This document shows positions 37,691-40,174 of a stretch of 64,000 nt of DNA, one piece after another; the first letter of the stretch is position 1, and each line of letters starts with the position of its first letter. Location of the stretch: positions 1 through 64,000 of the forward strand of contig JAMLIB010000001.1 in NCBI GenBank assembly GCA_023954415.1. Reading direction: 5' to 3'. The position numbers were made by a program, and so were the translations under genes. A model generated the notes under the pieces. It saw nothing but the letters and a program-made list of their open reading frames with translations. It was not told the DNA's origin and searched no databases. The DNA comes from Trueperaceae bacterium. Lineage in GTDB: Bacteria; Deinococcota; Deinococci; Deinococcales; Trueperaceae.

Positions 37691-38584
37691 TCAGTCGACG
37701 ACGAACTCCTCGATCATCCCTTCCATGTAATGCGCCGTAGAAGGGTCGTGCATGTCCGGCACGAAGCAGACGGCCACCCAGGTGCCGGCGGAGAAGTCGA
37801 GGGGCAGGTAGACGGTGGCTCCTGGGGTAAGCGCCTCGATGCTCAGGTCCGTGCCGGTGTCGAACGGCGGCGGCGTGCTCTCGTCCGTGGCGCCGTTGAG
37901 GAACGCCTCGAGATCGGCGGTCGTCTTGCCGGGCAGGAGTTTGAAGAAGGCCGCGATGTGCGGCTGCGCGCCCGTGTTACTCACTTCCCAGAGGTTCTCG
38001 CCCGCCGCTATGGTAGCCGGGAAGTCGAAGGCGAAGTCCGAGAGGTGCACCACGTTGGCCACCTCGGGGGCCGTGCCCTGATCGCCGCCCTCCGTGACCA
38101 TGAAGGAGGTGTACACCGGCTTGCTCGCGTCGTTCCCGTCAACGCTCGCCGATACGACGTACGTCCCTTCCTCTAGGTCGACGAACATGTCGGTCTCGTC
38201 ACGCGCCTTCACGACGGTGCCGCCGAGGGCGTCGGCCTGCTCCATGAACGCCTGCATCGCCGCGACCGAGGCGTCCGTCTGGGCCTGGAGCGCCGCTTGC
38301 AGTGTGGCGTCGGTCTGCTCGAACGCCCCGAGCCCGACGCCATCGTGCAACCGGTACACGTTGAAAGTGACGGCCTCCGCGCTCTCGTTGACCAGCCCGA
38401 CGGAATGGAAGCCCTCCCCGGCGTACACCTGAGGCCCCCGCAGGCTGCCGTCGGCGTACTCGGTGCGTACATCGGCTGCCGCGTGCGCGAGGCCGGAGGC
38501 CAGCGCGACGGTGAGGAATGGAAGCCACGCGAACCGCGCGGCCAGCGCGCGTGGCGCATGGTGATCTGTCTGACGGTCGTACAT
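37691..38584 (-). CDS. Secreted protein with C-terminal cupredoxin-like domain
   Basis: 297 aa. A signal peptide (about residues 15-38, ending LASGLAHAAA) leads to an N-terminal region with a beta-sandwich look (YAGEGFHSVGLVNES), a middle helix rich in Ala/Gln (about 90-125) and a C-terminal domain. There PHIAAFFKL and, near the end, CFVPDMHDPSTAHYMEGM place His, Cys, His and Met as in blue copper sites. ATG 38584 has GGAGGT 7 nt upstream. Copper binding is inferred only from this spacing. Divergent from the GH5 gene. Confidence 0.65.
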   Translation of the reverse strand: MYDRQTDHHAPRALAARFAWLPFLTVALASGLAHAAADVRTEYADGSLRGPQVYAGEGFHSVGLVNESAEAVTFNVYRLHDGVGLGAFEQTDATLQAALQAQTDASVAAMQAFMEQADALGGTVVKARDETDMFVDLEEGTYVVSASVDGNDASKPVYTSFMVTEGGDQGTAPEVANVVHLSDFAFDFPATIAAGENLWEVSNTGAQPHIAAFFKLLPGKTTADLEAFLNGATDESTPPPFDTGTDLSIEALTPGATVYLPLDFSAGTWVAVCFVPDMHDPSTAHYMEGMIEEFVVD

Positions 38585-38747
38585 GATCAGTACCTCCGAA
38601 CGCGCATACTCTGCGCCCGGGAGTCCCGGTGTCATGGGGCCGTGTCCCGGTCCTGGCCGGGACGCGTCCTAGCTCGCACCGGCGGCGAGGCCGCCGTACG
38701 GGTCGAAAGCCGCGTCGGCGGTGGGCTCGCACGCACTTCGCCGGTCT

Positions 38748-38758: not shown

Positions 38759-40174
38759 ATGCGCAAGGAACCGCGTCGCGTCGCCGCCCTGGCCGTCGCA
38801 TTCAGCCTCACCCTCGCCCTTACGCTTCTCGTCGCTTGTGCCGGCCAGCCGCTCCCGCCTCCCGGCGGCGGCGTGCCAGAGCCCTTCGGCCGCGGCATCA
38901 ACTTCGCCAACGCCCTCGAGGCGCCGAACGAAGGCGACTGGGGCGTCACGTTGCAAGAAGGCTACGCTGAGGCCGTCGGGAGCGCCGGTTTCCAGACGGT
39001 CAGGTTGCCGATCAAGTGGTCGGCGCACGCTTCCGCCGCCGCACCGTACACCGTCGATCCCGACTTCTTCGCCCGCGTTGACGAGGTCGTCGGCTGGATC
39101 GTCGAGCGCGGCATGAACGTCATCGTCGACTTTCACCATTACGACGAGCTGCACGAGGACCCGGGCGGCCACACGGAGCGGTGGCTCGCCATCTGGCGGC
39201 AGATCGCCGAGCATTACCGGGACGCCCCTGACGGCGTCCTCTTCGAGCTCCTCAACGAGCCGCACGACGCCTTGGACGACGCGACCTGGAACGCCCTCGT
39301 CTCCCAGGCGCTGGCCGTGGTGCGCGAGACCAACCCGACCCGCTGGGTCGTGGTCGGACCGACGGGCTTCAACGGCATCGGCAACCTGCCGGGTCTCGCG
39401 TGGCCGGACGACGACCGTCTCGTTCTCACCGTGCACTACTACGACCCGTTCTACTTCACGCACCAAGGTGCCGAGTGGGTCGAGCCCGCGCCGCCCGTCG
39501 GCACGACCTGGACCGGCTCGCGGCTGACGCCGAACCCGGCCTGGGCCGACTGGTCGTGGGACACGACGCGGGATTACGGCGACGAGCTCACGCTCACCTT
39601 CGACGCCGGTTGGGCGGGCTATTACCTGCAACCGTTCGGGGCTCTACTCGGCTACGACCGGCTCGCGTTCACGACGTCGCGCGCCGTGGAGCTCCTGGTC
39701 GCCTGCGGGCCGGAAGCCGACAACGCGACGGTGCCGGTGGACACCGAGGCCGGCGTCGAGACGGTCGTAGACCTGGCGGAGTGTGGCGGCGCAGGAGGGG
39801 TGGAGCGGGTCATCCTCCAGAACCGCACGGCCGTGCCCCAGACGCCCTTCGTCCTGCAAGGCCTCGAGCTCAGGGCGGACGGGCAGCGCCTGCCGCTTCT
39901 CGTCACCGAGACCGAGGCGGTGGAGGCGGCTTTCGACTTCGTGAGGGAGTGGGCGGAAGCGCACGGCGCCCCACCCGTTCTCGTCGGCGAGTTCGGAGCG
40001 TACGGCAAGGCCGACACGGCCTCGCGCGTCCGGTGGACCCGCGCCGTTCGCCAGGCGGCCGAGGCGCGCGGTCTCAACTGGGCGTACTGGGAGTTCGCGG
40101 ACGGCTTCGGGGCGTACGACCCGGTGGCCGGCGCGTGGCGCACCGGGCTGCTCGGGGCGCTCGTCGGGGACTGA
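38759..40174 (+). CDS. GH5-family glycoside hydrolase lipoprotein with inserted domain
   Basis: 471 aa. The lipoprotein signal ends LLVACAGQ (lipid-bearing Cys27). The catalytic barrel starts FGRGINFANALEAP, with FQTVRLPIKW, acid/base Glu167 in LLNEPHD and nucleophile Glu411 in VGEFGAYG. Between TTWTGS (about 253) and the penultimate strand (about 378) sits a roughly 125-residue insert, mostly beta, that resembles a carbohydrate-binding sandwich (LTLTFDAGW, GGVERVILQNR). It would degrade a beta-glucan or mannan-type polymer at the cell surface; the exact substrate is unknown. Divergently transcribed from the cupredoxin-like gene. Confidence 0.85.
   Translation: MRKEPRRVAALAVAFSLTLALTLLVACAGQPLPPPGGGVPEPFGRGINFANALEAPNEGDWGVTLQEGYAEAVGSAGFQTVRLPIKWSAHASAAAPYTVDPDFFARVDEVVGWIVERGMNVIVDFHHYDELHEDPGGHTERWLAIWRQIAEHYRDAPDGVLFELLNEPHDALDDATWNALVSQALAVVRETNPTRWVVVGPTGFNGIGNLPGLAWPDDDRLVLTVHYYDPFYFTHQGAEWVEPAPPVGTTWTGSRLTPNPAWADWSWDTTRDYGDELTLTFDAGWAGYYLQPFGALLGYDRLAFTTSRAVELLVACGPEADNATVPVDTEAGVETVVDLAECGGAGGVERVILQNRTAVPQTPFVLQGLELRADGQRLPLLVTETEAVEAAFDFVREWAEAHGAPPVLVGEFGAYGKADTASRVRWTRAVRQAAEARGLNWAYWEFADGFGAYDPVAGAWRTGLLGALVGD

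Follow-up and report, generated by a model that had tools for sequence, protein, structure and literature searches.

The gene at 38759-40174 of the window (the whole stretch of 64,000 nucleotides analysed here) encodes a GH5 hydrolase in which 244 residues separate the two catalytic glutamates, E167 and E411. What occupies the interval between them, and what does it do for the enzyme? The original prediction had placed there a beta-sandwich domain, at about residues 253-378, inserted inside the catalytic barrel. The positions below are aligned to MtGlu5 of the related hot-spring bacterium Meiothermus taiwanensis WR-220, a GH5_25 endoglucanase reported to carry a CBM29-like jelly roll in its barrel (Ye et al. 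2022, PMC9063844). MtGlu5 numbering was taken via L084, the insert region of which is identical to the 7vt8 sequence.

38759-40174, + strand: GH5 endoglucanase gene, MtGlu5-type, 471 aa plus stop, ATG at 38759
38759-38839, + strand: N-terminal signal with lipobox-like LLVAC ending at residue 27, putative lipoprotein (sequence reading)
38876-39511, + strand: catalytic barrel, first part, residues 40-251 (Pfam, MtGlu5 alignment, model, fold comparison)
39257-39259, + strand: E167, general acid/base, equivalent to MtGlu5 E149 (alignment)
39512-39904, + strand: inserted carbohydrate-binding module, residues 252-382, equivalent to MtCBM 236-365 (homology, model, fold comparison)
39551-39553, + strand: W265, sugar-platform residue, equivalent to MtGlu5 W249 (alignment)
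39557-39559, + strand: W267, sugar-platform residue, equivalent to MtGlu5 W251 (alignment)
39611-39613, + strand: W285, sugar-platform residue, equivalent to MtGlu5 W270 (alignment)
39704-39706, + strand: C316, invariant in all 16 insert-bearing rows (alignment columns)
39782-39784, + strand: C342, second invariant cysteine, 16/16 insert-bearing rows (alignment columns)
39818-39820, + strand: Q354, equivalent to MtGlu5 Q337, a proposed sugar hydrogen bond (alignment)
39905-40171, + strand: catalytic barrel, second part, residues 383-471 (MtGlu5 alignment, model, fold comparison)
39989-39991, + strand: E411, nucleophile, equivalent to MtGlu5 E393 (alignment)

The window protein was searched against Pfam, where PF00150 (Cellulase) is found in two stretches (E 4.8e-47, 161.2 bits for a curated cut-off of 23.5) and no second family at E up to 1, insert included. 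In NCBIfam all matches stayed below threshold, and the highest-scoring reached 33.9 bits for a cut-off of 700. In GH5 enzymes the acid/base glutamate stands within an NEP motif and the nucleophile glutamate on the next-to-last barrel strand. N166-E167 and E411 are kept in 16/16 insert-bearing rows, and in the predicted model E411 falls within strand 407-412. These residues correspond to E149 and E393 of MtGlu5, reported as acid/base and nucleophile respectively (PMC9063844). Leaving aside rows that end or are misaligned ahead of the second glutamate, the Glu-Glu spacing among related proteins from 99 loci is 240-252 in 14 distinct insert-bearing proteins and 114-119 in the 28 insert-free rows where the second glutamate could be aligned. 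The separation of 244 residues is thus unusually wide, as the original prediction had it. Since MtGlu5 is stated to belong to GH5_25, the window protein would be placed in the same subfamily.

At the N-terminus a helix (6-28 in the model) covers the signal, and the N-termini are similar in many relatives. We read LLVAC as lipobox-like, and the protein is probably secreted and anchored to lipid. Nine nearby ORFs were scanned. Those downstream include a RibD_C protein, a TerC protein and a class-V aminotransferase, and those upstream a two-component pair. No glycan-degrading gene appears among the nine, and there is therefore no operon evidence. Directly upstream and divergent, 37691-38635 (- strand) encodes a 314-aa protein that matched nothing in Pfam at E 0.001.

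The extra segment is real coding sequence, because the insert is kept in orthologues whose proteins are 93, 86 and 61-63% identical to it and because its GC by codon position (0.73/0.51/0.90) is similar to that of the catalytic parts. Its limits, by homology to MtCBM 236-365, are about 252-382, near those first proposed. The structure was predicted with AlphaFold2 on a 43-row alignment (A4), which replaced a discarded single-sequence prediction (mean pLDDT 46.2). The resulting model has a mean pLDDT of 92.7, with block means of 91-98 for residues 241-390, and contains a chain of strands (256-383) outside the barrel elements, between beta-6 and alpha-6. As anticipated, the segment stops just ahead of the helix (384-401) that precedes the nucleophile strand (407-412). 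The TTWTG motif, by contrast, had been read as a strand and actually lies in the beta6-alpha6 loop of the model.

Structural comparison placed 7vt4 and 7vt8, both MtGlu5, at the top (Z 53-54, rmsd 1.4-1.6 Å, 431 residues; by VIA, 7vt8 has Z 53.4 and rmsd 1.6 Å over 431 residues). Foldseek aligned the model with 7vt8 at E 3.6e-63 (TM 0.88 for the query, 0.95 for the target). The proposed beta-sandwich thus agrees with a high-confidence predicted beta jelly roll and with MtGlu5 as the top fold match. The next-ranked structures are of the Cel5A type without insert, aligned over about 305 residues. One of them, TmCel5A of Thermotoga maritima (3amc, 3mmu), has a similar barrel (3amc: Z 46.6, rmsd 1.1 Å over 303 residues) but, unlike the window protein, no insert. 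The query of the fold search was the whole protein and not the insert alone, so the absence of CBM29, CBM8 and CBM11 from its matches carries no weight. By sequence, the PDB search retrieved 7vt8 and 7vt4 at E 7.4e-141 to 2e-140, unbroken through the insert, as well as the insert-deleted forms 7vt5-7vt7.

MtGlu5 was crystallised (PDB 7vt4-7vt8), and its insert, which was deleted and transplanted, is described as a CBM that extends the substrate groove (PMC9063844). Without module 236-365 the Km rose nearly ninefold and the kcat fell more than tenfold, while the barrel stayed intact (rmsd 0.28 Å); the authors ascribe the kcat drop to loop perturbation (PMC9063844). By calorimetry, the CBM-deleted inactive enzyme showed no significant binding of CMC, for a Kd of 5.7e-6 with the full-length inactive enzyme (PMC9063844). 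Put into TmCel5A at the equivalent place, the module tripled activity on regenerated amorphous cellulose; at a site ten residues off it failed (PMC9063844). Single Trp-to-Ala mutants of W249, W251 or W270 retained about 40% of activity, with a Km increased 15-17-fold and a rising kcat, and W192 and E216 had little effect (PMC9063844). In the authors' model a single chain of 12-14 sugars runs through both domains, and the sugar contacts proposed for R303 and Q337 likewise come from modelling (PMC9063844). These results are restated in a 2025 review (PMC12484212). The original prediction considered an interstitial CBM unusual. This is true and stated in print, and the exact case was published in 2022 (PMC9063844). 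The layout is unusual among cellulases, but as an architecture it is already known, with its structure solved and its function tested.

MtGlu5 is collinear with residues 31-469 of the window protein, at about 50% identity. Both have the GH5 barrel, the insertion point, the jelly-roll insert, both catalytic glutamates, the three platform tryptophans and Gln337. Identical in both are W43, H108, H109, E149, Y212, W224, W249, W251, W270, Q337 and E393 (MtGlu5 numbering). The window protein differs at W188 (F204), W192 (G208), E216 (Y232) and R303 (P318). Of the polar contacts proposed from the published model, Q337 is thus kept as Q354 and R303 is replaced by P318.

The analysis itself establishes the homology to MtGlu5, the point of insertion, the predicted fold and which residues the two proteins share. 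By analogy with MtGlu5, the window GH5 very probably cuts beta-glucan with the Trp strip of the insert prolonging the groove of the barrel, so that the chain lies across both domains. The barrel would cut the chain, E167 acting as acid/base and E411 as nucleophile, and the strip W265/W267/W285 would continue the barrel groove formed by W61, F204 and W240. One glucan chain could then be held across both domains, giving tight binding of long beta-glucan chains. What counts for this mechanism is the conservation in place of both catalytic glutamates and of all three MtCBM tryptophans; against it count the identity of about 50% and the changes R303 to P318 and W188 to F204 at proposed sugar contacts. 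As the MtGlu5 residues are mostly identical, and W192 and E216 are of little effect, the mechanism should transfer by homology. Groove extension, affinity gain and activity loss on deletion are carried over from MtGlu5 and would be expected here.

Other explanations of the segment were weighed. Two genes fused through an assembly error or a frameshift artefact have next to no chance of being the answer: the same collinear gene occurs in 14 other Deinococcota genome assemblies, a collinear solved protein exists in MtGlu5, and nothing was found in favour of a fusion, which relatives and solved structures refute. In G061 one TAG was flagged, outside the insert stretch; the open frame has 472 residues and the insert is without stops. 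A negligible probability also attaches to enlarged barrel loops in place of a separate domain, an alternative raised with the original prediction and checked by structure prediction, in which the segment forms a separate strand block. It is a jelly roll in 7vt8, the insert-deleted barrel of MtGlu5 is intact (PMC9063844), and in GH44 and GH8 proteins homologous modules lie apart from the catalytic domain, even if the segment does come after a loop already bearing the substrate-binding W240. For MtGlu5 the enlarged-loop reading is refuted by the crystal structures.

The jelly roll might, on the other hand, bind little sugar by itself and serve mainly to stabilise the barrel or the beta6-alpha6 loop. 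This agrees with the behaviour of isolated MtCBM, which as a GST fusion bound CMC weakly (Kd 4.56e-2) and without GST was unstable, and with the lowered kcat on deletion, ascribed to loop perturbation (PMC9063844). Two relatives, moreover, have an insert without aromatic platform. However, W265, W267 and W285 are all present in the window protein, and the Trp mutants of MtGlu5, in which Km and kcat both increased, denote an effect on binding (PMC9063844). We consider a mainly stabilising role of the window insert highly unlikely, and retain a module that prolongs the groove of the barrel.

The distribution of the inserted form was then examined with the insert profile. In Deinococcota the profile was found within a full-length GH5 gene in 15 of the 111 genomes searched; G040 has an insert-free copy in addition, and G051 a fragment. 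Among genomes of the class to which the Acidimicrobiales genome G111 (a MAG) belongs, it matched in 3/296. The matches of G111 and G683 extend over the full GH5 protein, giving the inserted form in 2/296 genomes, whereas the remaining one (L138) is another kind of protein, which has the module close to its N-terminus. The insert of L139 is deduced from a tblastn match spanning query 47-468; this locus is absent from all column counts, as the motif used for extraction did not retrieve it. For the class that includes the Chloroflexota genome G114, the profile matched in 41/298 genomes. For the strong GH5 matches of this 298-genome sample (E <1e-60) the barrel pieces are at most 66 nt apart in 38/38 rows, and these 38 matches therefore have no insert. 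The insertion is not common in a named GH5 subfamily: MtGlu5 is classed as GH5_25 (PMC9063844), and most homologues found are insert-free. No paper on GH5_25 with 'inserted' and 'Deinococc' came out of the literature search. The architecture itself is already known, and the general understanding of cellulases is unchanged; what is new here is the distribution, the CBM8 link by profiles and the platform loss in two relatives. A published curiosity known from one enzyme is thereby extended to homologues in Deinococcota and Acidimicrobiia.

A tree was built from barrel sequences minus the insert, with 43 rows (16 insert-bearing and 27 insert-free). Insert-free rows entered the tree and A4 when the second glutamate came 110-125 residues after the first and no fewer than 278 residues were aligned; the remaining homologues of the 99-locus set, aligned over the first part only, were left out of both. 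All 16 insert-bearing rows fall into one group, which also takes in two insert-free rows (support 80/82); the well supported branches require three changes. This tree is compatible with one gain and two losses as well as with several gains. The insert-free GH5 of Albitalea (L035:3989-4972, + strand) has a beta6-alpha6 loop, NPVLPIGV, resembling the loops of insert-bearing proteins, and from its sequence looks like a loss of the module. The loop of L096 (LGTKW) is of the ordinary insert-free type, so that the nesting of this row may reflect an artefact or a replacement.

To which family does the module belong? Three profiles were used: A1 from the insert only, A5 from 12 Chloroflexota modules, and A6 from the pooled sequences. 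Against the PDB, A1 finds MtGlu5 clearly, CBM29 only at E 0.23-1.6, and does not reach the CBM8 structure 7t7y at E up to 10. For A5 the match to 7t7y has E 4.6e-15 and that to the MtGlu5 insert E 1.7e-13, and the comparison of A5 with A1 by hhalign gives a probability of 99.8 (E 1.2e-27). A6 reaches CBM8 at 4.2e-6 and, weakly but in register, CBM29 at 0.0028-0.027. The profiles thus suggest a link of the insert to CBM8 through the Chloroflexota modules, an indirect one since A1 alone misses 7t7y. CBM29-2 is not known as an insert within a catalytic domain. The module is called CBM29-like by Ye et al. (2022, PMC9063844), and CBM29-2 of Piromyces equi (1gwk-1gwm) shares with MtCBM the jelly roll and an aromatic platform, whereas the profiles point via the Chloroflexota modules to CBM8. 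In the report on 7t7y and 7t7z, the CBM8 of Dictyostelium discoideum, the binding face is described as planar, the same three aromatics and Gln positions are noted in CBM8 and CBM29-2, and common ancestry of the two is judged hard to infer (PMC9079177). No mention in print of a CBM8 link for the insert was found in the literature searched.

The Chloroflexota loci L117-L137 hold CBM8-like modules, to which no clear Pfam family corresponds, at the termini of GH44, GH8 and GDPD proteins. Nineteen module proteins from the class of G114 were scanned (L117-L137 minus L124 and L136, whose hit-holding frames were not extracted). The module is near the N-terminus of GH44 in 6/19 and of GH8 in 5/19; two others have GDPD, one (L133) has the module after a weak GH5 match, and the rest have other or no families. 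Several Chloroflexota genomes have multi-copy arrays of the module in frames of about 1190-1385 aa. These GH44 and GH8 modules are homologous to the insert, yet N-terminal or in tandem and not inserted. The cysteine pair C316/C342 is present in 16/16 inserted modules and 0/12 terminal relatives, the Chloroflexota modules having a single cysteine in 1/12. A C316-C342 disulfide is possible; 'disulfide' is absent from the main text of the MtGlu5 paper (PMC9063844).

The platform positions are all aromatic in 14/16 insert-bearing rows. The other two, L089:1495-2811 (- strand) and L090:1489-2805 (+ strand), are insert-bearing GH5 genes from two genomes of one genus. Their residues at the three positions are Q/Q, Q/K and D/E, with K at the Q354 position. 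From these sequences it is unlikely that the two inserts bind glucan as MtCBM does; the insert therefore need not bind glucan alike in every member. Tentatively, the Deinococcota and Acidimicrobiia inserts may be a branch of a widespread CBM8-like family whose other members are terminal or in tandem arrays (GH44, GH8 and others in Chloroflexota); this branch would have moved into the GH5 loop, gained the cysteine pair, been lost in at least one line (L035) and, in L089 and L090, shed its platform with the insertion retained, a history that we hold possible but somewhat doubtful. If it is true, the module of L089 and L090 may have another ligand or a purely structural role. The inserted module is in any case tied by sequence to CBM8-like terminal modules, and terminal, inserted, and inserted with platform lost make up a natural series in which to study the incorporation of a binding module into an active-site groove. 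In Deinococcota, genome G014, of the same family, has a GH44 protein whose N-terminal module is a relative of the GH5 insert (L115:1-1803, - strand).
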